Below are positions 3,408 through 54,670 of a stretch of DNA of 54,784 bases, in pieces. Positions within the stretch are counted from its first letter, which is position 1. Each line of letters opens with the position of its first letter. The position numbers were made by a program, and so were the translations under genes. The notes under the pieces are model-generated. The model was given only the letters and a program-made list of their open reading frames with translations, was not told the origin of the DNA and ran no database searches. The DNA comes from a virus, in the IMG/VR virus record IMGVR_UViG_3300022932_000095, positions 1-54,784 of that record. One strand, written 5' to 3'.

Positions 3408-4285
3408 ATGTCAGATAAAAACATGTCTATACCAGTAATTGATGATAATCAAATCTTCATTCAGTTGTTTGAGAAACAGGTGGCTCTTACACCGGGGAAT
3501 ATTGCCCTTGTGTCAGGAGGCGAATGTATTACATACCTTGAGTTAAATAATGCAGCTAATCGTCTTGGCCATTTTTTAAAGGCCAGAGCGGTTCAGGAAG
3601 AAAGCCTCGTACCTGTGTGCCTGCAGCGCTCTCCCCGGCTGCTGATCACTATACTGGCCATTTTAAAAACAGGTGCAGCTTATGTACCCGTTGATCCGGA
3701 ATATCCGGCAGATTACATCCGTTTTTTACTGGAAGATACCGGTTCGGAATTATTAATAACTGACCATTCGTATAGAGAACAGTTACAGCCATTTGTTAAA
3801 ACATGCATTGACTTAGATACATGTAGTGAAGCAATTGCTGCGGAGTCTGGTGAAAATGTAATGAATATGCTTACATCCGGCAATCTGGCCTATGTTATTT
3901 ATACTTCGGGTTCTACAGGTAAACCAAAAGGGGTAATGATAGAACATGGGAACCTGATGAATTACCTGGCTAACTGTATAAAGTATTATGTAGATAAAGA
4001 TGCAGCAGGCCCTGGAAGTTATTTAAACCTGCCGGGTACGTTTGATGCATCCGTCACTTCTATGTTTGTGCCTTTGTTAACGGGTACTTCAGTAGTACTG
4101 GCTCCGGCAGAAATTGCAGAAATGTTCAGAAACGGTTCATTCAGTCAGGATAAGGCATACCAGTTTTTAAAAATGACCCCCTCACATCTTCAATTGTTAA
4201 ATGAAGCAACCGGCAGCAGCAGACAGGGCTTGACTAAAAGACTTATACTTGGTGGGGAAGCCCTTCAGTATAGCCAGCTTAAATT
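3408..4285 (+). pseudogene. NRPS adenylation domain, cut off by the phage junction
   Basis: Start of a second NRPS reading frame, in the same frame as the gene before it and separated from it by one TAA and three codons. It contains the N-terminal half of an adenylation domain: A1/A2 region (LKTGAAYVPVDPEYP), A3 phosphate loop YTSGSTGKPKG around residue 170, the FDASVT substrate-pocket segment, and GGEAL just before the break. Homology to adenylation domains stops at about residue 293, exactly where the sequence becomes identical to the phage repeat at 54671. A chimeric tail of about 12 residues then ends at 4325. Without A5-A10 and a carrier domain it cannot work. Whether the break exists in the cell or only in the assembly is open. 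Confidence 0.85.
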
Positions 4286-4399
4286 TTTAGGTAACTATAT
4301 ACGAGTTGGTACAAATATAATATGAAAACCGGGTTAGATGCCCGGTTTTCAATGTTTAAAATACTTATATTTATGACATTTACATTATTAGGGTATAGG
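4286..4399 (+). repeat. 114-base direct repeat, left copy (phage join)
   Basis: Identical base for base to 54671-54784, where the window ends. The bases before the two copies differ (NRPS before this one, the capsid stop codon before the other). It contains the capsid terminator hairpin and the start of a small ORF, so it is phage sequence and not host att DNA. The match may continue beyond the window. Confidence 0.95.
4324..4350. terminator. Bidirectional terminator hairpin after the capsid gene
   Basis: Perfect 10-bp stem GAAAACCGGG / CCCGGTTTTC with a 7-base loop, ending in T residues. In the circular map it lies about 40 bases after the capsid stop codon, and it recurs at 54709-54735. 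It would end late transcription before the leftward cargo cassette. Confidence 0.8.
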
Positions 4400-4522
4400 A
4401 TTACTTTCAGAAAAGAGGATAAGAACTTAAGAAAAAGGCAATTAATGCTAAACGAAACATCCAGGATGATTTCGGAGTCGTTCAGAAAATTCAGAGAAGG
4501 TAAAAATAGTCTATCTCTATAA
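4352..4522 (+). CDS. Small protein with hydrophobic N-terminus
   Basis: 56-codon ORF placed directly after the capsid terminator. I start it at the ATG at 4352 because the ATG at 4322 lies inside the terminator stem; a further ATG at 4373 begins MTFT, resembling the start of the next small ORF. The N-terminal residues (MFKILIFMTFTLLGY) are hydrophobic and the rest is basic and probably helical. It resembles no family I know. Confidence 0.4.
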   Translation: MFKILIFMTFTLLGYRITFRKEDKNLRKRQLMLNETSRMISESFRKFREGKNSLSL

Positions 4523-4526
4523 TATT

Positions 4527-4658
4527 ATGACATTTAGAATATTCAACATATTAATCATCATTAGAAGATACCCTAGCAGTAAGCAACTAGCGGAGAACCA
4601 AAAAAGGCTTTTTGAATTAAAAAAAATGATATTCAGTCAGGGCTCGTCTCAGACATGA
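4527..4658 (+). CDS. Small basic protein, possible paralogue of its neighbour
   Basis: 43-residue ORF five bases after the preceding small ORF. It has the same plan: a short hydrophobic N-terminus (MTFRIFNILIII) and a basic helical tail. The MTFR/MTFT starts and similar layout suggest a duplicated pair. Function unknown. Confidence 0.35.
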   Translation: MTFRIFNILIIIRRYPSSKQLAENQKRLFELKKMIFSQGSSQT

Positions 4659-4664
4659 TTTTTC

Positions 4665-4690
4665 AAAAAAGCCGACACTTGGCCGGCTGT
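4665..4690 (-). terminator. Terminator for the leftward cargo operon
   Basis: On the minus strand a 5-bp stem AGCCG / CGGCT is followed by six T. It lies just past the stop codon of the beta-barrel-like gene. Confidence 0.6.
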
Positions 4691-4699
4691 TATTGTTGT

Positions 4700-5257
4700 C
4701 TAAAATCTATAACCCAAGCCAAATGTGGCTTTATTATAGTTGTCGTATCCTATGTTAATGCCTACGTGTTTTGTCGCACGCACGTCAATAAAACATCCGC
4801 CAAATAATTTCTCTGACTCATGATGGGATGTACTATACAATCCCATTATATTGTTGTATGCGTTTTTGTAATTTATCTTGGTGCTAGAGCCAAGTCTACC
4901 TCCAATAGCCACACGTCCAAGCCTGTACCCTAAAGAGGCGTAAACGCCACCATTATTAGACACGCCTGTTTCATACACATCCTCAGGGAATGGATCATAA
5001 ATAGTTCCGTTATAACTTTCTCCATAAGCTCCTTTGTTTTTTAACGGCAACATTAATCCTATCCCAAAAAGAAAACCATTGTTGAAGTTCTTGTCGCTGT
5101 TATTCAGCACCTCCAAGCCTATTTCCCCACCGAAATTAGACGCGGTTCCGTAAATGCCTGTTAATGAGAATTTAAATTGTTTTCTAGATTGAGCTTGCAA
5201 TTGAGTAACTGAGAAAATAGTGGTTGCTAGAAATAATATGTAGAATTTTCTGTTCAT
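4700..5257 (-). CDS. Secreted outer-membrane beta-barrel-like protein
   Basis: 185 residues from the ATG at 5257. An upstream in-frame ATG would add 13 residues in front of a clear signal peptide, so it is rejected. The signal peptide is MNRKFYILFLATTIFS followed by VTQLQAQ with a cleavage site after AQ. The mature part has alternating glycine- and aromatic-rich strands ending in GLGYRF, with a terminal phenylalanine as in outer-membrane barrels. It looks like a bacterial gene carried by the phage. It shares an AAATACGACAAAAA leader with the gene upstream. A role in surface alteration of infected cells is only a guess. Confidence 0.65.
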   Translation of the reverse strand: MNRKFYILFLATTIFSVTQLQAQSRKQFKFSLTGIYGTASNFGGEIGLEVLNNSDKNFNNGFLFGIGLMLPLKNKGAYGESYNGTIYDPFPEDVYETGVSNNGGVYASLGYRLGRVAIGGRLGSSTKINYKNAYNNIMGLYSTSHHESEKLFGGCFIDVRATKHVGINIGYDNYNKATFGLGYRF

Positions 5258-5259
5258 TG

Positions 5260-5277
5260 TTTTTGTCGTATTTAGGG
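5260..5277 (-). repeat. Shared start-codon leader AAATACGACAAAAA, copy 1
   Basis: On the minus strand CCCTAAATACGACAAAAAC ends two bases before the ATG at 5257. A near-identical leader precedes the ATG at 5856 (5857-5874), and a third variant without an adjacent gene lies at 6004-6017. It suggests common control or a duplicated leader in the cargo cassette. Confidence 0.5.
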
Positions 5278-5301
5278 TATATATAATTATTGTCAAATCA
5301 T

Positions 5302-5856
5302 CTAAAATGATTCTTGTTTGTATTTCATTGATTTTTTAAGCGAAGATATCATTAACTCACTCTGCTCTTTTATAGAGGCCAATATAACCCTGCTTATTCT
5401 CTTTGTATACATCTTCCTGTTTCCTGTTTTTTCTCCTAGGATATTACAAATTAATTCAGATGGCATAAAGTCGCCAATTACGTCCGAATTAAGAGCCATA
5501 TCGTATATTTTATACCTATATCTATTGTCTTTACATTCTATTTGAATAGTAATCATGTCACGACATGTATTTGTTCCGGTCATACTGTTATAGTAAACAG
5601 GTATAGATCCTTTGCCTATTATCTTTCCTTCCTCTTTATCTTCGTTCTGGATTACGTTTTTAGAGTTTTTAAACGAATCAATAAACCACTGTTTGCCGTT
5701 TTTATAAAGATCATCTTTACTCATTTCTGGCACATGAACCACTCCCTCATAAACTATATCGTTATCTTTGAATGGTAAGTTTATCCCAGACGTATCTTTT
5801 TGGGCATAAGAATTTGCAGCCATAAATATGCTGCATGTAATAACTAGAATTTTCAT
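5302..5856 (-). CDS. DUF4468-family secreted protein
   Basis: 184 residues with an N-terminal signal peptide (MKILVITCSIFMAANSYAQ). The pattern of SKDDLYKNGKQWFIDSFK, then EDKEEGKIIGKGS, then a strand-rich second half is that of DUF4468, a TBP-like-fold family I know from Bacteroidota. No enzymatic role is known to me. It precedes the beta-barrel-like gene by 44 bases in the same leftward unit. Both look like host-derived cargo in the phage late region. Confidence 0.75.
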   Translation of the reverse strand: MKILVITCSIFMAANSYAQKDTSGINLPFKDNDIVYEGVVHVPEMSKDDLYKNGKQWFIDSFKNSKNVIQNEDKEEGKIIGKGSIPVYYNSMTGTNTCRDMITIQIECKDNRYRYKIYDMALNSDVIGDFMPSELICNILGEKTGNRKMYTKRISRVILASIKEQSELMISSLKKSMKYKQESF

Positions 5857-5874
5857 TTTTTTGTCGTATTTGGG
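5857..5874 (-). repeat. Shared start-codon leader AAATACGACAAAAA, copy 2
   Basis: On the minus strand CCCAAATACGACAAAAAA directly precedes the ATG at 5856 of the DUF4468 gene. It matches the leader of the gene downstream. Confidence 0.5.
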
Positions 5875-5885
5875 TTTTAAATTAA

Positions 5886-6017
5886 ATGGCGTGGACTGAT
5901 ATATCTATATGCCACCCAGGGTTACGACGCCCCACCAAGACACAAAGAAACAGCCACGCCATGACAGCGTACTATTATGCTTTGTATTGTCTTGGTGCCT
6001 TTCTGTCGTAATTTGGG
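5886..6017 (-). other. Nested inverted repeats, possible structured leader RNA
   Basis: No gene lies in 5857-6049. Within it a long imperfect inverted repeat has arms 5915-5947 and 5980-6017: TTACGAC (5922-5928) with GTCGTAA (6005-6011), CACCAAGACA (5933-5942) with TGTCTTGGTG (5988-5997), and CAAAG with CTTTG. A further 9-bp pair, ATGGCGTGG (5886-5894) with CCACGCCAT (5954-5962), links the flank to the loop, giving a pseudoknot arrangement. Leftward transcription would place it in the 5' leader of the DUF4468 gene. A transposon end or recombination site is the alternative. Confidence 0.45.
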
Positions 6018-6049
6018 CAGCAATACTAAACGTAGTACTATATCTTAAC

Positions 6050-6160
6050 CTACTTATTAGGTTTTTCTTCTTTCACAGATGCTTTAATCACCTCGTTAAA
6101 AGATCCTTTTATTTTTAGCTTGTAATCATTCTTTTTTGGTTTTGGTTTATCTTTTTTCAT
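6050..6160 (-). CDS. Small basic protein in the transposase operon
   Basis: 36 residues with a lysine- and proline-rich start (MKKDKPKPKKNDYKLKIKG) followed by SFNEVIKASVKEEKP. I recall short basic proteins of this kind from Bacteroidota but cannot name a function. It is the last gene of the four-gene leftward unit containing the transposase. Confidence 0.5.
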   Translation of the reverse strand: MKKDKPKPKKNDYKLKIKGSFNEVIKASVKEEKPNK

Positions 6161-6224
6161 TCCTTAATTTTTCAAAGTTATTAAATATTCAGTATATTTA
6201 TCATTATGAAAAAATTAAAGATAT

Positions 6225-6473
6225 TTATTTACCGCTTAAAAGGTCTCCTAGGTCTAAATCCTTTAGTGATACGTATAGATCAGATAAAATTACCGATCGT
6301 GCTTTATCGGAAATCTCAGAAAACATCTTAGTGTTTTCTTCATAGCTTTGACCATTGTTGATGTTCTCAATAAGGAACGTATTTTGAGCTGTAATCGCTA
6401 TGTGCGTTTGTACAGTTAGGATAAGGATAGCTTTGATCGTATCCCTAAGTCCATTGATTTCTAGTTCTTCCAT
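6225..6473 (-). CDS. Hypothetical protein downstream of the transposase
   Basis: 82-residue, mainly helical protein without cysteines or an obvious membrane segment. Its start lies 27 bases after the transposase stop. It matches no family I recognise. Its position suggests it belongs with the transposase cassette. Confidence 0.55.
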   Translation of the reverse strand: MEELEINGLRDTIKAILILTVQTHIAITAQNTFLIENINNGQSYEENTKMFSEISDKARSVILSDLYVSLKDLDLGDLLSGK

Positions 6474-6500
6474 AATATTTTAGTTTTTGTTTAACTAAAC

Positions 6501-7493
6501 TTATGAAATTAATTGCTTATACGTAAGTCTACTGTTCGAATTTGATAACGCATCACAAAATCTTTCTGAATCAGACAAACCACGTGTATTGTAACGATAG
6601 GTGAACTCATGGCAATACCTGCTGAGGTGTTTTGAACTAGTAAAATGATATACGCCAATAATACCACGTTTCAGTAGACTCCAGAACCCCTCTATTGTGT
6701 TGGTATTGTCCTCTCCGACTGTTATGTAGTTTCCATTGGTGTGCTTGATGGATGTGTGGGTGAATTTTTTTGATAATCCCCTATATGAAGGGTAAGCATC
6801 GGTTACTATTTTTGTTTTAGACTGGACAGAAGAGTTTATTATAGATTCAATTGTGTATGATGATGTATCTTTTGCAACAGAACAATATACCTTGCCGTGT
6901 TTAATTACGACTTTTTCTTTGACTTTACGGCCTTTTATTACTTTGTGATCTCTTTCTATGTATTCAATCACCTGCTTTTGAGCTACGCCTACAACAGGGG
7001 TTTTGTCTGATGGGCTTCTACCCTGAGAGCCTTCTATTTTCTTATTATCATGCCTGTTTTTATTCTTTCCACCAATATAGGTTTCATCTACTTCAACTAC
7101 ACTATCCAGCATCTCAGGAGCATTGTTAACTAACATGTGTCTTATTCTGTGCAAGAGAAACCAGGCTGTTTTCTGGGTTATATTTAGGTCACGACTCAAC
7201 TGTAAACTTGATATACCCTTTTTATGAGAGGTAGCTAAATAAATAGCAGCAAACCAATACCTTAGAGGTATTTTTGTATTTTCAAATACAGTGCCAGTAG
7301 TCACCGTGAATTTTTTACGGCATCCTTTATCCTTGCATTTAAAACCCCTATTGGTTACGTAAGAGCCCACAGTACCACAATGAGGGCAGCAAGGAGAGGA
7401 ACCCCATCTTTGGTACGCCAGGTAATCCACACATGTTGGCTTTTCTTTGAAGTGGTCAAGTAAATGTATTAGGCTTTTAAAATTCGTTGTCAT
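6501..7493 (-). CDS. IS1595-family (ISXO2-like) transposase
   Basis: 330 residues, the usual size. An N-terminal zinc ribbon has two cysteine pairs: CPHCG near residue 35 and a second pair near residue 55 (CKDKGC). The ISXO2-like catalytic domain shows VDETYIGGK near 140 (first Asp), DAYPSYRGL near 236 (second Asp) and NTIEGFWSLLKRG near 268 (third residue Asn/Glu), as in the IS1595 group. It would cut and join DNA of its own element. It sits one base after a small ORF and 27 bases before another, inside the phage morphogenesis operon. No flanking terminal inverted repeats or target duplication were recognised, so a resident or domesticated gene is possible. Confidence 0.88.
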   Translation of the reverse strand: MTTNFKSLIHLLDHFKEKPTCVDYLAYQRWGSSPCCPHCGTVGSYVTNRGFKCKDKGCRKKFTVTTGTVFENTKIPLRYWFAAIYLATSHKKGISSLQLSRDLNITQKTAWFLLHRIRHMLVNNAPEMLDSVVEVDETYIGGKNKNRHDNKKIEGSQGRSPSDKTPVVGVAQKQVIEYIERDHKVIKGRKVKEKVVIKHGKVYCSVAKDTSSYTIESIINSSVQSKTKIVTDAYPSYRGLSKKFTHTSIKHTNGNYITVGEDNTNTIEGFWSLLKRGIIGVYHFTSSKHLSRYCHEFTYRYNTRGLSDSERFCDALSNSNSRLTYKQLIS

Positions 7494-25823: not shown

Positions 25824-26432
25824 TCATGGTTGCTTAGTTGAGGTGGTTGATTTGAAATGAGAATTATAAATTGAATAAACAGGCACGGTTTCAGTTTTCC
25901 CTTCTTTTGATAGATTAACTTTTAAATGATCTATATTCTTTCCATACGTAGGTTTAATTATTCGACCGCTCATCTCCATATCAAACCCATTACCTCTTTT
26001 TGAATAGACAGTTCTATCTACTGATCTGACTCTGAAATATGAACTTATTTGATAAACACCTTTATACCCTTTAATATCTTTCCAAATTTCAACATTGATA
26101 TTTTCAGCAGGAGCAACCGGGATAAATTGGTTGGCGTACATTTCAGCGGCTTTGTTTATATAAGCGTCAAGAACTGCTGGAGAAATTTCAAAATCCCTTA
26201 ATAATTCAATCCATGAAACATACTTAGTGCCTATTAAGGTCTTATCCTTACACTCCTGCAAAGTCAGTTTACCTTTCTTCCCCTGCTCGATTAACCACTC
26301 GGTGTGTTTTGAAAACAACTCCAAAATGCTTTGAAATACAGGCTCTCCATGATCATTCTTAAACAGCCCAATGGCTGAAATATTAACTCCTACGGCTTTA
26401 CAAAAAGCCTTCTCTTGTTCGTGTTGTTCCAT
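25824..26432 (-). CDS. Phage protein fused to an orphan NUMOD4 domain
   Basis: 202 residues. About 1-105 are a helical domain with no family I know. About 108-185 are a NUMOD4 domain (EIWKDIKGYKGVYQISSY), normally the N-terminal part of HNH homing endonucleases. The HNH part is absent: the chain ends 17 residues after the VPVYS strand. It looks like a homing endonuclease that invaded a phage gene and then lost its nuclease. Last gene of the leftward early operon. Confidence 0.65.
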   Translation of the reverse strand: MEQHEQEKAFCKAVGVNISAIGLFKNDHGEPVFQSILELFSKHTEWLIEQGKKGKLTLQECKDKTLIGTKYVSWIELLRDFEISPAVLDAYINKAAEMYANQFIPVAPAENINVEIWKDIKGYKGVYQISSYFRVRSVDRTVYSKRGNGFDMEMSGRIIKPTYGKNIDHLKVNLSKEGKTETVPVYSIYNSHFKSTTSTKQP

Positions 26433-40925: not shown

Positions 40926-40933
40926 TATATTTG
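40926..40933 (+). promoter_or_regulatory. Promoter -7 element of the terminase operon
   Basis: TATATTTG, an exact TAnnTTTG match, 18 bases before the ATG at 40952. No TTTG at -33 was found; the region there is T-rich. Confidence 0.55.
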
Positions 40934-40951
40934 TGGTTGACAATAATTAAC

Positions 40952-41458
40952 ATGACTGAATTACAAAGAAGGTTTGCGGACAGGTATTTTGAGACACTAA
41001 ATGGCTCACAATCAGCTATATATGCAGGGTACTCTGAGGCTACATCTAGGCAAAAAGCATGTGAATTATTAAACGATCCGGAAATAGAGGCATACATATC
41101 TGCTCTAAAGGCAGAATATGCTGAAAAATCAGGGATAAGTAAGATGCGTGTATTAGATGAGTACCGTAAAATTGCATTCTCTGATGTTAGGAATGTTTTA
41201 ACCGTTGATGGTGGACTCAAAAGCATAGATGATATAGACGACGATACGTCCGGTGCAATTGCCTCTATAGAATCATTTGACGAAGTAGACAGATCAGGGG
41301 AGAGGTTGGGTACAAATAGAAAGATAAAATTGCATGATAAATTAAGAGCATTAGAAGCCCTGTCTAAGCACTTGGGATTATTTGAGAAGGATAACGATCA
41401 AAAGAAAAATCAAGCAACAGTAACAATATTTGAGCTGCCTGATAATGGCAGAAAGTAA
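40952..41458 (+). CDS. Terminase small subunit
   Basis: 168 residues from the ATG downstream of the -7 element; a TTG seven codons earlier lies within the promoter and is rejected. MTELQRRFADRYFETLNGSQ, SAIYAGYSEATSRQKACELL and PEIEAYISALKAE form the helical DNA-recognition domain of the Terminase_2 family. It recognises the packaging site, so a cos or pac site is expected near here. It is followed by the large subunit. Confidence 0.9.
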   Translation: MTELQRRFADRYFETLNGSQSAIYAGYSEATSRQKACELLNDPEIEAYISALKAEYAEKSGISKMRVLDEYRKIAFSDVRNVLTVDGGLKSIDDIDDDTSGAIASIESFDEVDRSGERLGTNRKIKLHDKLRALEALSKHLGLFEKDNDQKKNQATVTIFELPDNGRK

Positions 41459-41503
41459 CTGACCGGATGAAGACCGGCAAGTGGGTAAGAGGCCACAAAA
41501 ATT

Positions 41504-41529
41504 AGCTATCTTTGCGGATAGCTTTTTTT
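41504..41529 (+). terminator. Terminator hairpin abutting the large terminase start
   Basis: Stem AGCTATC / GATAGCT with a 6-base loop and seven T, ending at the base before ATG 41530. It may act as an attenuator between the terminase genes. Confidence 0.65.
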
Positions 41530-43041
41530 ATGCAGGAACAAATAAAAAGGATTAGACCCCAAGACGGGTATCAATTAGAGTTTGCATCTTCTTCTGCTGA
41601 TATATGTATTGGGGGTGGGGCAGCCGGAGTAGGGAAAACGTTTTCATTGCTATTGGAGCCTATAAGACATAAAGATGTCGACGGGTTTGGATCTGTGATA
41701 TTCAGAAGAACAAACCCGCAAATAAGAAACGAGGGTGGTCTATGGGACACATCAATGGGACTTTATAATTTATTAGGCGCAACCCCAAGACAAAGCAATT
41801 TAGAGTGGATTTTTGAAAAATCAAAACTTAAATTCTCACACCTAGAGTACGAAAAAAATATATACGACTGGCAGGGGTCTCAGATACCATTCATAGGATT
41901 TGATGAGCTTACCCATTTCACAAAAAAAATGTTTTTTTATTTATTAACCCGTAACAGATCTGTATGCGGTGTAAATCCATACGTTAGAGCGACATGCAAT
42001 CCTGATCCGGATAGTTGGGTAGCAGAGTTCATATCTTGGTGGATTGACCAGGAAACAGGGTATGCAATCCCAGAAAGAAGGGGTAAATTAAGGTATCTTA
42101 TTGTTGATGGTGATAATTATTTATGGGGGGATAGCAAAGCAGAGGTTATAGAAAAAGGATGGCATATTATAGGGGAGGTCGTTGAAAGATCTGGGATCGA
42201 CCCAAACGAATTTGTAAAATCTGTGACATTTATAGGTGGCAGTATTTACGACAATAAAGAGTTGTTAAAAGAAAATCCGGCGTATTTAGGGAACCTGCTA
42301 GCGCAAGACAAAGATGTTCAGGCAGCTCTATTACATTCTAATTGGAAAGTTGTGTTGTCTGATAATGATATATACGATTACCCTTCGTTTTTAGGCATGT
42401 TTAACAACTTATACGAAATAGAAAAAGAAGAACGATATATAACAGCGGATATAGCATTGGAGGGCTCTAATAAGTTTATAATAGGCGGATGGGAAGGAAA
42501 AGAGTTGATAGCAATAAAAGTAATAGATAAATCCAACGGAAAGCAGGTTGTTGACGCAATAACCGGTATGGCAAAAGACATAAAATGTCAGAATAAAAAT
42601 ATATGTTATGACAATGACGGTGTGGGCGGGTTTGTCGAAGGATTCATACCTGGGGCTATACCTTTTCACAATGGAGGTTCCGCTATGCCAGATCCAGAAT
42701 CTGTTAATGATAAAAAAACACCAGAAAGATATGAGCACATAAAGGCTCAATGCTATTATAGATCAGGGAAAGCAGTACAAAGAGGAGAATATAAAGTTTC
42801 AGAAACAGTATATAATTCAATGTATGATGATAAAATGACAATAAGGCAACGTTTCATGCATGAAAGAAAGGCTATAAAAAAAGACAAACTAGATCAGGAC
42901 GGAAAATTATGCTTGATAAAAAAGGGGGCTATGAAAGCTAAGCTAAATGGGGACTCTCCTGATTTAATGGATATGTTTATGATGCGGGAAAGATTTGAAT
43001 TAGAGAAAAAAGCTAAAGAACTATCATTCGGATGGGATTAA
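41530..43041 (+). CDS. Terminase large subunit
   Basis: 503 residues from ATG 41530; a TTG at 41512 is in the hairpin. ATPase: Walker A GGAAGVGKT (about 33-41) and Walker B QIPFIGFDELTHF (about 120). RNase H-like nuclease: Asp in YITADIALEGS (about 302), Asp in CYDNDGVGG (about 360) and Asp in the DSPDLMDMF end (about 480). It translocates and cuts DNA at the portal. Type not assigned, so headful versus cos cleavage is open. Confidence 0.93.
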   Translation: MQEQIKRIRPQDGYQLEFASSSADICIGGGAAGVGKTFSLLLEPIRHKDVDGFGSVIFRRTNPQIRNEGGLWDTSMGLYNLLGATPRQSNLEWIFEKSKLKFSHLEYEKNIYDWQGSQIPFIGFDELTHFTKKMFFYLLTRNRSVCGVNPYVRATCNPDPDSWVAEFISWWIDQETGYAIPERRGKLRYLIVDGDNYLWGDSKAEVIEKGWHIIGEVVERSGIDPNEFVKSVTFIGGSIYDNKELLKENPAYLGNLLAQDKDVQAALLHSNWKVVLSDNDIYDYPSFLGMFNNLYEIEKEERYITADIALEGSNKFIIGGWEGKELIAIKVIDKSNGKQVVDAITGMAKDIKCQNKNICYDNDGVGGFVEGFIPGAIPFHNGGSAMPDPESVNDKKTPERYEHIKAQCYYRSGKAVQRGEYKVSETVYNSMYDDKMTIRQRFMHERKAIKKDKLDQDGKLCLIKKGAMKAKLNGDSPDLMDMFMMRERFELEKKAKELSFGWD

Positions 43042-45066: not shown

Positions 45067-45357
45067 ATGAAAACAAGACTTTTTAAAATCGCGCATTCAA
45101 TTAAAGGCCATTATGCTACGTTCTCAGAAGCTTTAACCGCAGCATGGAAAGTAATTAAGCTTATGTTGAAATTAAAGTCTGGAACAGCCTCATTCGCCTT
45201 TAAAAAGGTAGATGGATCAATTAGAAAAGCAATAGGTACGCTGAAAGACGTTCCGGCTTCAAAAGGAGTTAAAGCAACTAACTATGGGCAGTTTATATAC
45301 TTCGATATAGAGGCTAATGATTTCAGATCTGCTAAAGTTGAAAATTTAATATTTTAA
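45067..45357 (+). CDS. DUF2693/SH3-like small protein
   Basis: 96 residues. The second half (ASFAFKKVDGSIRKAIGTLK, then FIYFDIEANDFRSAKVENLI) has the pattern of small SH3/WYL-like proteins (DUF2693) frequent in Bacteroidota mobile elements. Role unknown; regulation by ligand or protein binding has been supposed for the fold. Confidence 0.6.
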   Translation: MKTRLFKIAHSIKGHYATFSEALTAAWKVIKLMLKLKSGTASFAFKKVDGSIRKAIGTLKDVPASKGVKATNYGQFIYFDIEANDFRSAKVENLIF

Positions 45358-45379
45358 CACTAAATTGTGGTATTTGAAA

Positions 45380-45621
45380 CCAACGGTGAATCTGTTTTGT
45401 TGCGTGTATCATAACAGAACGGGCATATGATTGGGTTCGAATCCCTAAACGTTGGCAAAAGCCCTTGTGAAGTACTGGTGTCGTTAATGCTTTCAAAGGG
45501 CAATTATAAACGAGTCGGCATACGGAGAAGTAAGGTGCCCTGTATTAACAGGGCAGTATTATAGTAAAACATGAGAGCGTTTAATTGAGATAGGTGTTGC
45601 TGGATGGCGCACCTATTTTTT
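45380..45621 (+). ncRNA. Structured non-coding region with tRNA-like T arm
   Basis: About 240 bases without an ORF, holding several stems in a row: CCAACG (45380-45385) / CGTTGG (45450-45455) enclosing TCTGTT / AACAGA and a canonical T arm GGGTTCGAATCCC (45433-45445); GCCCTT-TGAAG (45461-45472) / its partner ending at 45501; TGCCCTGT / ACAGGGCA (45536-45555); and a terminal stem with T6. The first part looks like a tRNA without D arm and with a 16-base middle loop. It ends just upstream of the portal gene. Confidence 0.55.
45590..45621 (+). terminator. Terminator before the portal gene
   Basis: Stem ATAGGTG / CACCTAT (45590-45596, 45610-45616) followed by six T. Confidence 0.8.
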
Positions 45622-45623
45622 GT

Positions 45624-45655
45624 TTTGTCTTTGTGTAACAAATCAGTTACATTTG
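45624..45655 (+). promoter_or_regulatory. Portal operon promoter TTTG-N20-TACATTTG
   Basis: TTTG (45624-45627), 20 bases, TACATTTG (45648-45655), an exact consensus match. The -7 element ends only three bases before ATG 45659, so the mRNA would be leaderless or nearly so. Confidence 0.7.
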
Positions 45656-45658
45656 TTT

Positions 45659-47008
45659 ATGAACTTAATAGAATCAATATTCTCATCAGCAATTAGCAAG
45701 CGGGTTAATGAAGTAATTGCAGAAAAACAATCTACCACATTTGCCAATGCTATGACTTCTATTAATATTGGTCTCAATGAATCTTTACCTACTATAAATC
45801 CTGACGCAGCGGACTACTATCAAACATTTAAGACTATTGGGGCTGTTTATGAAGTTACCGATGCGATAACAAAGAAGGTTATATCATGTCCAGTAGTAGC
45901 ATACAAAGTAAAAAACAAAAAGAAGTTACAACAATCAAAAACACTCGAAAAGATAGACCCAGTCCAGTCTTATTTACTGAAATTACAAGCTGTTGAGGAA
46001 GTTGATGTGCCTGGATTGCAAGATATGCTTACTATGGGCAGAGCAAACCCATATCAGACTGGTTCTCAATTTATATGGACAACTGTACTGTCTCTATTGC
46101 TTGGAGGTAATACATACGTCCACCCGTTAAAGGCTGGCAAAAAAGTTAAAGAACTATACTGCTTCCCTAATATGTCTATCGATGCTGATCCTGATGATTT
46201 AATGGATCCAATTAGGGGGTACACGTTATTAACCTCTGATAGAACTAAGTTTGATAAAGACGAAATACAGCACTTTAAAACAGGAACTCCGGCCCCTGTT
46301 GATAGGAGGATGGAATATCTGTATGGAGTATCACCATTAAGGGCTTATTTAGAATCACTAAGATCTATTAAAGAAGGGAAAGAGCAATCCAGTAAACAAG
46401 CTAAGAACGGAGGAGTGTTTGGTGTACTATCTCCACGTGACAAGGAAGACAATCTATCTACTGACTCAAAAAAGCAGTTAAAAGAAAAAATGATTGAAGC
46501 CAGGAGAAGCAATGATGAATTAGCTAGGGTATTCCCGTCGTCTATATCGTTATCTTGGCAGAATATAGGACTTCCAGCATCAGATCTTCAATTGCTGGAG
46601 TTAGTAGGTGCAAGTGAAAAAGACGTATATAGAGCTTATCATTGGCCTTTAAATTTCCATGATCAGTCAGGTAACACCTTTAGCAATCAAGGTATGGCAA
46701 CAAAACAAGCTATATATGATGCTGTGGCTCCTATATGTGACATGTTAGGCGAGTCATTCACCCATATATTAGGCGAAGGATACGGATTTGACTATATAGA
46801 ATGGGACTACACTCAGTTACCAGAGATGGCTGTCGATATGAAGGCTGTAGCAGAATACCTTGGTGCACTACCTAAAGGTGTACTAACATACAACGAAATG
46901 AGGTCTGCAATAAGGTATGGAGAAAAAACAGAAGCCTACATGAATGAGCATTATGTAGACTCCGGTTTAATAACTCTGAAAAGTGCTTATGAAGGATTGA
47001 CTAGTTAA
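45659..47008 (+). CDS. Portal protein
   Basis: 449 residues from ATG 45659 (an earlier start at 45620 lies in the terminator and promoter). Portal family features: NVGL-like start replaced by MNLIESIFSSAISKRVNEVI, a VTDAITKKVISCPVVAYKV strand, NTYVHPLKAGKKVKELYCFP, and YGVSPLRAYLESLRSI, a hallmark of HK97-type portals. It forms the dodecameric DNA gate at the head vertex. Ends four bases from the convergent glycosyltransferase gene. Confidence 0.9.
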   Translation: MNLIESIFSSAISKRVNEVIAEKQSTTFANAMTSINIGLNESLPTINPDAADYYQTFKTIGAVYEVTDAITKKVISCPVVAYKVKNKKKLQQSKTLEKIDPVQSYLLKLQAVEEVDVPGLQDMLTMGRANPYQTGSQFIWTTVLSLLLGGNTYVHPLKAGKKVKELYCFPNMSIDADPDDLMDPIRGYTLLTSDRTKFDKDEIQHFKTGTPAPVDRRMEYLYGVSPLRAYLESLRSIKEGKEQSSKQAKNGGVFGVLSPRDKEDNLSTDSKKQLKEKMIEARRSNDELARVFPSSISLSWQNIGLPASDLQLLELVGASEKDVYRAYHWPLNFHDQSGNTFSNQGMATKQAIYDAVAPICDMLGESFTHILGEGYGFDYIEWDYTQLPEMAVDMKAVAEYLGALPKGVLTYNEMRSAIRYGEKTEAYMNEHYVDSGLITLKSAYEGLTS

Positions 47009-47012
47009 TCGG

Positions 47013-47681
47013 CTACGTCCTGAATTCTATAAACTCCTTACTATTCGCCTGTGACATAAAATAATCATATCCAGACTTTAGATTCTCTTGCATTTCTTCT
47101 TCTGTAAAACTTCGTTGTATTGCATTGTGTTCATCCATTGAGTATATTAATTTATCAGAATCAACAACATCTATAAATGGATGTGGAATAAGTCCTGCAT
47201 TATATATCCTTTGGCTCATTGATGTGTGTTCATATTTGTTATGAAATTTAACATCGAAACCGCCTATCGTATCTATGCAATGTCTTGTGTACATCATTGC
47301 AAATCCGTTACTAATTCTATGATACGATATATTATTTTCAATTCTTATAGACGGATAGAAAGTTCTACATAGGTGCTGTTGTTTAGATTCCAAGTAAGGC
47401 AAGTGCCAATTTTCGCATAAAGGAAATGAATCATCATCAAAAAGCCAAAATATATCACAACCAGATTCGTGCATCAATTTTAAACATGAGTTTTTTGATG
47501 AAGCAATACCTTTACTATACTCATTCCTTAAATCAGGGTCACAATATAGAATGTCACTTCCGTCGTCAACTACGAATATCTTGCTATTAATAGGCTGATG
47601 CATAAAATGATACTCAATACACTTATTAAATGCACTTTCTCTATTCTTAGTTGTTATGGCTATGCCTATATATGGATCCAT
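47013..47681 (-). CDS. GT2-like glycosyltransferase
   Basis: 222 residues, GT-A fold: start GIAITTKNRESAFNKCIEYH, nucleotide-binding VVDDGSD (about 38) and a metal-binding DDD in LFDDDSF (about 82), then IGGFD (about 140). Substrate unknown. Last gene of the leftward cassette, overlapping the HNH gene by 16 bases. It could modify the cell surface or a phage structural protein. Confidence 0.7.
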   Translation of the reverse strand: MDPYIGIAITTKNRESAFNKCIEYHFMHQPINSKIFVVDDGSDILYCDPDLRNEYSKGIASSKNSCLKLMHESGCDIFWLFDDDSFPLCENWHLPYLESKQQHLCRTFYPSIRIENNISYHRISNGFAMMYTRHCIDTIGGFDVKFHNKYEHTSMSQRIYNAGLIPHPFIDVVDSDKLIYSMDEHNAIQRSFTEEEMQENLKSGYDYFMSQANSKEFIEFRT

Positions 47682-48181
47682 GATTTCCCTTTCTTTATAT
47701 AATATACGCTGGTTTTGGTGACAAAATATATAGAGGCTATATAAGATACAGAGTGACCTTCTGAAATCATTTTTCTAATATTAATCACATCAGAAGCACA
47801 CAGCTTACTTCTTGGATTGTCGGATCCCTTATTTGATTTTATACCACTCCTGAAAGAGTGATTTACGTTTTCCTCTCTAGTACACCATGAGAGGTTATTT
47901 AATTTATTGTTATTTACATCACTATCTATATGGTTTACCTCTGGCTTACCTAGTTCATTTAATAAAAAAGACATAGCTACTAACCTATGTACTAAGAATT
48001 GTTTATTACTACCGTTGCTATATAATCTAACAGAATGGTAGCCTCTTGGCATTATCAAATGCTTTAATAACCTTGATCTGACTACGCCTAATCTGGGCAG
48101 GCTTTTTATGTTTCCGTAATCACTAACCTGATAAAGACCTTCATATCCAATTACATCTTTCCATATTTCGTTACTATCCAT
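47666..48181 (-). CDS. NUMOD4-HNH homing endonuclease
   Basis: 171 residues: NUMOD4 (EIWKDVIGYEGLYQVSDYG, about 5-50), HNH_3 core (HRLVAMSF, then NHIDSDVNNNKLNNLSW, about 65-110), and a C-terminal HTH (SDVINIRKMISEGHSVSYI). A free-standing homing endonuclease that cuts related phage genomes lacking it. The overlaps with both neighbours suggest a well-settled insertion. Confidence 0.9.
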   Translation of the reverse strand: MDSNEIWKDVIGYEGLYQVSDYGNIKSLPRLGVVRSRLLKHLIMPRGYHSVRLYSNGSNKQFLVHRLVAMSFLLNELGKPEVNHIDSDVNNNKLNNLSWCTREENVNHSFRSGIKSNKGSDNPRSKLCASDVINIRKMISEGHSVSYIASIYFVTKTSVYYIKKGKSWIHI

Positions 48182-53377: not shown

Positions 53378-54670
53378 ATGGACTTGAAAAACTTCAAAGT
53401 GCTTTCTAAAGACCAATACGACGCTCTGTCAGAAAGGGAACAAGTAAAGTACGAAATTCAACTTGAATCCTTTAAGGAGCAAGAACAATTAAGAATCGCC
53501 AAAGAAGCTGCCACATCAGCAGTAGAAGCGGTTAGAGCAGATCTAATTAAAGAAAATAAAGACTTATTAGAGCAGCTTACAAAAGATAACGCAGATAAAC
53601 TGAAAGAACTTTCTGAAAAGCACAAGCTTGACATGGAAGAATTGGAAGTTGCTTTAAAGCGAAATAAGATTGCAGACATCGGTAATCGTATGAAAGGTTT
53701 TTCTGAGCATATCGTTGAAAAACTTTCTACAGAGGATGGTGAAAACATGCTCAAGAGCTTTTTCAAAGGACAGCGTGAGGCTTTAAACCTTGATGTAGAT
53801 GCAGATGCTCTAAAAGCTCCAATTAGCGTACCGGCTGGTTCTGTTGCTCCAGAGTTCTTGCCTATTGTTGGGCCTGGTCACGATGATATTCATGCAAGAA
53901 ATGCTATTCCCGTATTCCCTACTATAGCGGATGTTGTTAAATTTGTTCAATTCACTACTACGAATCCTACAGCTGGATTTGCTACAGTTGGAGTGGGGCA
54001 AGCTAAACCCGAATTAGCATATGTGTCTGCTTTAAGAGAGGCACCTGTTCGTAAAATTGCAGGTTGGCTGGATATTCCTGACGAGGTTATGGACGATGTT
54101 GCCGGATTCAGAGCGTGGATCGCGTACGAGCTTCCAAAAGCCTATCTAGATGCAGAAGATTACATGTTCTTTAAAGGTTCAGGTACTGGAATTAATATTC
54201 TAGGGTTATGGACTCAGGCGGGTACTCAAACTTTACCTTTCGGATCGGTAACAGACTTATCTAATGAGTGGGATAAATTAATGGCTGCCATTACTGAGAT
54301 TAGAACCAAAAAGCGTGCTACATCAGCAGCTTTTGTATCGCCCTTATTCTATATGGAATTATGGATTAACAAGGGTACTGGTTCAGGAGAATATACTTAC
54401 CCTATCGTTATGGGTGACAATGGTGTGCTTTACGTAGGCGGAGTTCCGATCTACTGGAGTAATGTTTTTGTTAACTATGAGGGCTTGGTTGGTGATTTCG
54501 CTAGAGGCGCATCAATCCACCAACGTAAAGCAATGAACATTGCTTATTCTGCTGAGAACAAAGATAACTTTATTACAAATATTGTTACTATCCGTTTAGA
54601 GGGTCGTGTTGCGTTAGCAATCAGAGTTCCTGAGGCTTTCTTAAGATTAAGAGACACGCTTACCTCTTAA
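53378..54670 (+). CDS. HK97-type major capsid protein
   Basis: 430 residues. About 1-145 are a charged coiled-coil, the delta/scaffold domain (VKYEIQLESFKEQEQLRIAK). The HK97 fold follows: VGPGHDDIHARNAIPVFPTI, LDIPDEVMDDVAGFRAWIAY, TKKRATSAAFVSPLFYMELW and VGDFARGASIHQRKAMNIAY. The protease upstream would remove the delta domain. The stop codon is the last base triplet before the 114-base repeat. Confidence 0.93.
   Translation: MDLKNFKVLSKDQYDALSEREQVKYEIQLESFKEQEQLRIAKEAATSAVEAVRADLIKENKDLLEQLTKDNADKLKELSEKHKLDMEELEVALKRNKIADIGNRMKGFSEHIVEKLSTEDGENMLKSFFKGQREALNLDVDADALKAPISVPAGSVAPEFLPIVGPGHDDIHARNAIPVFPTIADVVKFVQFTTTNPTAGFATVGVGQAKPELAYVSALREAPVRKIAGWLDIPDEVMDDVAGFRAWIAYELPKAYLDAEDYMFFKGSGTGINILGLWTQAGTQTLPFGSVTDLSNEWDKLMAAITEIRTKKRATSAAFVSPLFYMELWINKGTGSGEYTYPIVMGDNGVLYVGGVPIYWSNVFVNYEGLVGDFARGASIHQRKAMNIAYSAENKDNFITNIVTIRLEGRVALAIRVPEAFLRLRDTLTS

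Follow-up and report, generated by a model that had tools for sequence, protein, structure and literature searches.

Between the WYL_2 and portal genes of an uncultivated, Bacteroidota-type tailed phage lies a stretch of about 260 nt that contains no plausible ORF, raising the question of what kind of RNA, if any, it specifies. The phage is represented by IMG/VR virus record IMGVR_UViG_3300022932_000095, which was analyzed over 54,784 nt (hereafter the window). The original prediction regarded the gap as possibly encoding a new non-coding RNA with a tRNA-like domain. All the stems that it named are present in the sequence, and its non-coding and tRNA-like character holds, whereas its status as a new RNA is doubtful: the element is probably tRNA-derived and not newly invented. 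Among the roles it proposed, tRNA mimicry is the most likely functional reading, while a packaging function similar to that of phi29 is unsupported. The explanation preferred here, with a probability of roughly 0.4, is that the element is a tRNA-derived RNA that no longer decodes and has been kept as a tRNA mimic.

Anatomy of the element upstream of the portal gene

Only 22 nt separate the stop codon of the WYL_2/SH3 beta-barrel phage protein gene (45067..45357, plus strand; PF10902, Pfam E 1.8e-18; PHROG 1086) from the tRNA-like part of the element (45380..45457, plus strand). Downstream, the portal protein gene (45659..47008, plus strand; PHROG 12, E 7e-34) is taken to start at ATG 45659, the mechanical ORF beginning at 45620. 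The small and large terminase subunits are encoded at 40931-43041 (large subunit gene terL, 41512-43041) and the major head protein at 53378-54670. Strong mosaicism is evident in the terminase, which is 92% identical to that of phage G007, and the portal, which is only ~62% identical to its G007 counterpart and closer to other phages. Elsewhere in the window, positions 3408-7493 carry an AMP-binding enzyme, a DUF4468 protein and an IS1595-family transposase, possibly host-derived cargo or a transposon insertion, and NUMOD4 homing-endonuclease-type genes occur at 25824-26432 and 47666-48181 (minus strand), the second of which (NUMOD4/HNH_3) overlaps a glycosyltransferase gene just downstream of the portal gene.

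The tRNA-like part was delineated by reading the sequence, by folding, by motif search and by alignment to the tRNA-Trp of a portal relative, L003. The T arm and acceptor-like stem of the original prediction are both confirmed on the plus strand. The T arm occupies 45431-45447, and its core GGGTTCGAATCCC (GGG-UUCGAAU-CCC), an exact match at 45433..45445, is unique in the window even when two mismatches are allowed; its 7-nt loop fits TTCRANY exactly. The acceptor-like stem is formed by 6-bp pairing of CCAACG with CGTTGG (45380-45385/45450-45455), and the 3' end of this part reads G-C-A, as is typical of tRNA. In the standard tRNA register, the 7+5 bp acceptor/T helix comprises 45381-45387/45448-45454 and 45431-45435/45443-45447, with 10 of the 12 pairs formed and mismatches at G6.A67 in the acceptor and T50.T64 in the T stem. 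The 5' acceptor strand is 43 nt from the T stem, compared with 41 nt in a standard tRNA.

The decoding half is altogether different. Neither a D arm with a GG loop nor an anticodon arm with a 5-bp stem and 7-nt loop is found in sequence and fold; a single long hairpin (45386-45426, plus strand) stands in their place. The original prediction had drawn a 6-bp stem with a 16-base loop here; that stem exists, although the region folds better as a 12-bp hairpin with three further pairs, about 15 bp in all. Its judgment that this is not a normal tRNA is corroborated by the search programs: RF00005 gives no match to the tRNA-like part up to E 10 (queries of 1 kb and 91 nt), no Rfam family reaches its gathering threshold in the window, and ARAGORN calls neither a tRNA nor a tmRNA. 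A tmRNA was rejected on these two program results and on the distance between the acceptor strands, which are only 64 nt apart.

The combination of a T arm with a 6-bp acceptor at tRNA spacing exceeds chance, being reproduced in only 2 of 20,000 shuffles of the gap and expected 0.03 times per window. Folding energy is unremarkable apart from the terminator stem, with fold z values of -2.6 for the whole region and -1.6 for the tRNA-like part; it was rejected as proof of a non-coding RNA because equally strong folding occurs in many other 240-nt segments of the window, most of them coding. The fold also depends on where the RNA starts. When it begins at 45380, the tRNA-like fold is the minimum free energy (MFE) structure, whereas a 5' end upstream of ~45371 allows a competing long hairpin (45371-45382/45431-45442) that hides the T arm; formation of the tRNA-like fold would thus require the RNA to start, or to be cleaved, near 45380.

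Three further structures follow on the plus strand. A hairpin closed by GCCCUU..AAGGGC (45461..45501; 6+6 bp with an internal loop, MFE -14.0, z -2.54) precedes a stem domain closed by UAAACG/CGUUUA (45507..45583; MFE -21.0, z -2.89) that encloses an inner hairpin GCCCUG/CAGGGC (45536-45555). No homologues of these 3' domains were found in any locus searched, and a covariance model built from them yielded chance-level matches only (E 0.01-0.03, equal to those on the reverse strand of the window itself). The terminator placed before the portal promoter by the original prediction is likewise recovered as an intrinsic terminator-like structure (45589..45621), with a stem at 45589-45615 (z -4.21) followed by T6 at 45616-45621; a strict terminator scan missed the stem because of its single bulge. 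Immediately downstream lies a Bacteroidota-type portal promoter (45623..45655, plus strand; -33 TTTTG, N20, -7 TACATTTG), whose block is 82% identical over 39 nt to the sequence before the portal gene of G002/L005, and a TAnnTTT-like box occurs upstream of the portal gene in most relatives. The -7 box ends 3 nt short of the ATG, and comparable boxes lie near the start of the portal gene in most relatives, so the portal may be translated from an mRNA with little or no leader.

The same site in portal relatives

Portal relatives were collected from IMG/VR (n=13, 54-76% identity), none being found in GTDB genomes, and were compared with the window as a set of 14 phages. A tRNA or tRNA-like element precedes the portal gene in three of them. 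The original prediction had named an intact tRNA in relatives, of which the element would be a decayed remnant, as a finding that would refute it, and this is partly borne out: L003 carries an intact tRNA-Trp(CCA) of 59.8 bits at the same site, between the terminase and the portal promoter. In L032, two tRNA-like genes with T arms at 4735 and 4854 lie directly before the terminator and portal promoter. The first has a perfect T arm and acceptor and no canonical anticodon arm, RF00005 scoring 36 bits on its long non-canonical middle, and the second has a perfect T arm and 6 of 7 acceptor pairs. The remaining 11 relatives have ORFs or other sequence there, with no tRNA or tRNA-like element. The terL-portal gap is therefore a variable cargo site, at which tRNAs and odd tRNAs are gained and lost.

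The element itself is known from one sequence only, with no close homologue. DNA searches of the phages and fetched loci matched nothing beyond promoter and terminator letters, and the structural pattern CCAACG .. T arm .. CGTTGG was absent from IMG/VR. Among the nine phage tRNAs of the group, it aligns best to the L003 tRNA-Trp (z 4.6); with the T arm held fixed, the alignment falls to z 1.5 (19/300). In the 13 nt 3' of the T arm, 8 positions match the L003 tRNA-Trp (p 0.0025 per comparison, uncorrected), and the T50.T64 mismatch is common to both. If the two are homologous, 5 of the 12 acceptor/T pairs have changed on both sides yet still pair, two have changed on one side and one has broken, which suggests that this helix persisted when a new structure took the place of the decoding half. 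Homology to the L003 tRNA-Trp is suggestive, not proven, from these comparisons. Given the intact tRNA-Trp at the L003 site, derivation from some tRNA is nevertheless likely, in preference to a newly invented RNA.

Candidate explanations for the element

Since relatives carry normal or misshapen tRNAs at this site, the element is most likely a tRNA that stopped decoding, leaving maintenance or decay to be weighed. Maintenance as a tRNA mimic is somewhat more likely, a decaying tRNA being nearly as likely, and the claim that the element still serves a function is accordingly tentative, at rather less than even odds. Decay would mean that a Trp-like phage tRNA gene, as in L003, was stripped of its D and anticodon arms and is now drifting, with the hairpins downstream of it representing an incidental spacer and the old tRNA terminator; this reading as a whole is a serious possibility. 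The intact L003 gene at the same site, to which the element aligns best, and the variability of the terL-portal gap as a cargo site both agree with it, as does the silence of RF00005. The two mismatches in the 12-bp helix and the lost D arm also fit decay and were counted against function. Apart from these mismatches, one in the T stem and one in the acceptor, the element would fit a maintained class of non-decoding tRNA-like RNAs with intact acceptor and T arm and a non-canonical anticodon arm. Drift accounts less readily for an acceptor/T half that still pairs though about half its bases differ from L003, and for the replacement of the lost half by a long hairpin, not by random sequence. Moreover, non-canonical tRNA-like genes of related phages (described in the next section) have perfect helices and covariation, so that losing the decoding half does not necessarily mark a gene as dead.

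Under the preferred reading, the maintained mimic would be a short non-coding extension at the end of the WYL_2 transcript or the product of a weak promoter of its own, and transcription would stop ahead of the portal unit. Trimming by host RNase P at ~45380/45381 and by RNase Z near 45455 is proposed because both enzymes read the acceptor/T-arm helix. The product would then occupy or decoy a host factor that reads tRNA, with no role in translation; candidate targets include a processing or CCA-adding enzyme, EF-Tu, a synthetase or a tRNA-targeting defence enzyme.

Considerably less probable is an unrelated non-coding RNA, either an sRNA or a 3'-UTR RNA of WYL_2, whose likeness to a T arm is accidental and whose active fold is the hairpin 45371-45442. 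Such an RNA would account for that hairpin being the MFE structure when the transcript starts upstream, and GGTTCGAATCC-like motifs are short; it sits poorly with the rarity of a T arm and acceptor at tRNA spacing among shuffles (2/20,000) and with the tRNA or tRNA-like genes that two relatives have at the same site. It is improbable that the gap is simply untranslated DNA whose only relevant features are the WYL_2 unit's terminator and the portal promoter. These two are indeed the best-supported features and the fold z of the rest is ordinary, but the tRNA signature and the synteny with tRNAs would be left unexplained.

An attP core usually consists of a T arm and the 3' acceptor strand, and the presence of both could reflect a host tRNA 3' end that serves the phage in integration. 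This origin is very improbable: the 5' acceptor strand is present too, at tRNA spacing, the T50.T64 mismatch would be unfavourable at the 3' end of a host tRNA, and no integrase was found among the window ORFs tested. Least credible of all is a role in packaging, whether as a phi29-like RNA or as a component of the packaging apparatus. Nothing speaks for it except the position between terminase and portal; against it count the variability of the site, the absence of any tRNA or tRNA-like element from it in 11 of 14 phages, and the fact that none of the other phages compared has the 3' domains.

Non-canonical tRNA-like genes in related phages

A wider survey covered the loci of 80 terminase relatives and 80 WYL_2 protein relatives (1.72 Mb), with a strict tRNA-like element defined by a 5-bp T arm and an acceptor with at least 6/7 pairs. 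It returned 46 strict elements, compared with 0.67 in Markov sequence, and 38 of these also had a strict D arm, compared with none in Markov sequence. Half of the 28 distinct elements with intact D, T and acceptor arms have no 5-bp/7-nt anticodon arm, a frequency that holds for these phages only because the loci were picked by protein relationship and not at random. The reverse arrangement, intact D and anticodon arms with no T loop, was not encountered (all six elements with both arms had one), a small number obtained with different scan rules. ARAGORN misses most of these non-canonical genes. RF00005 scores most of the odd elements other than the window element at 14-54 bits, which identifies them as tRNA family members with a non-standard decoding loop; the window element is more extreme.

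Bacteroides prophage groups carry tRNA-like genes in the early operon, where they follow a WYL_2/SH3 gene; their acceptor, D and T arms are all intact, and their anticodon loops are non-canonical, at 4 to ~16 nt. Representative members are L146:5426-5506, L160:5426-5507 and L142:5450-5521, with relatives in L151, L153, L154, L156 and L185; in L161, L165, L169, L172, L175, L182 and L200; and in L152 and L178. The copy in phage BS-TP2 (L200:3045-3126) was left out of its GenBank annotation. In group 1, whose loops measure 5, 9 or 10 nt, five pairs have changed on both sides, four of them in the anticodon stem, and sequence covariation thus indicates that this stem is maintained; in group 2, three pairs have changed on both sides, a count reached by 9 of 500 shuffles. 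Another phage carries four tRNA-like genes (L091:9778-10430, minus strand), three of which have a common acceptor AGTCGGG and a near-identical D arm, with utterly different decoding domains of ~20, 51 and 89 nt.

These genes in the L032, L046, L091, L142, L146 and L160 groups resemble the window element in keeping the acceptor and T arm while the decoding domain is rebuilt. They differ in that most still have a D arm and are recognized by RF00005, and those of the Bacteroides groups sit in the early operon, whereas the window element sits before the portal gene. It is conceivable, if rather speculative, that an unrecognised set of RNAs is widespread among Bacteroidota phages and includes the window element, namely non-decoding tRNA mimics under selection that keep the acceptor/T-arm half and have either remodelled the decoding half or done away with it. 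Such mimics would probably act on host enzymes that handle or target tRNA.

Several known systems offer partial parallels. Phage tRNA genes such as tRNA-Trp(CCA) in L003 and G007 share with the window element the L003 site, the T loop, the 3' end and the helix spacing, but the window element lacks their D arm, 7-nt anticodon loop, and RF00005 or ARAGORN call. The stable RNAs C and D of phage T4 are non-tRNA RNAs co-located with a phage tRNA cluster, a likeness of location beside phage tRNAs. Altered anticodon loops in phage tRNAs have been proposed as a means of escaping anticodon nucleases (van den Berg et al. 2023, PMC10264068), and there too the decoding loop of a phage tRNA gene differs from that of the host; those tRNAs still have an anticodon that can be used and are believed to function in translation, whereas the window element has lost the whole decoding half. 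D-armless tRNAs known from mitochondria (reviewed in PMC7609411) share the absence of the D arm, although they decode and retain an anticodon arm, which the window element lacks. In lysogeny, phage tRNAs complement disrupted host tRNAs (PMC10865867). The open-access library that was searched describes anticodon-loop variants and tRNA-dependent lysogeny, and yielded no account of such a mimic class or of phage tRNA-like genes that lack a decoding domain.

Discussion of phage tRNAs usually casts them as decoders or as substitutes for host tRNAs that have been cleaved. Should many of the "tRNAs" in phages of one host phylum be unable to decode normally while covariation preserves their acceptor, T and often D arms, some of the phage tRNA pool must have another task, for example imitating or decoying enzymes that read tRNA. 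One of the Bacteroides-prophage members belongs to a cultured phage, and these members are open to direct testing.

Other unusual tRNA-like genes also came to light. A tRNA-Leu-like gene (L013:1501-1650; G004:21807-21956, minus strand) has ~50 nt inserted in its anticodon loop with the TGACT..AGTCA stem kept, and a 198-nt tRNA-Val-like element (L004:217-414), called by ARAGORN only with a long intron, combines a perfect T arm and acceptor with a subsequent terminator-like stem. Two initiator-like tRNAs with a C1:A72 type acceptor (L101:54-120 and L105:1603-1670) have the loop TTGACTT, corresponding to a GAC anticodon with T at position 37.
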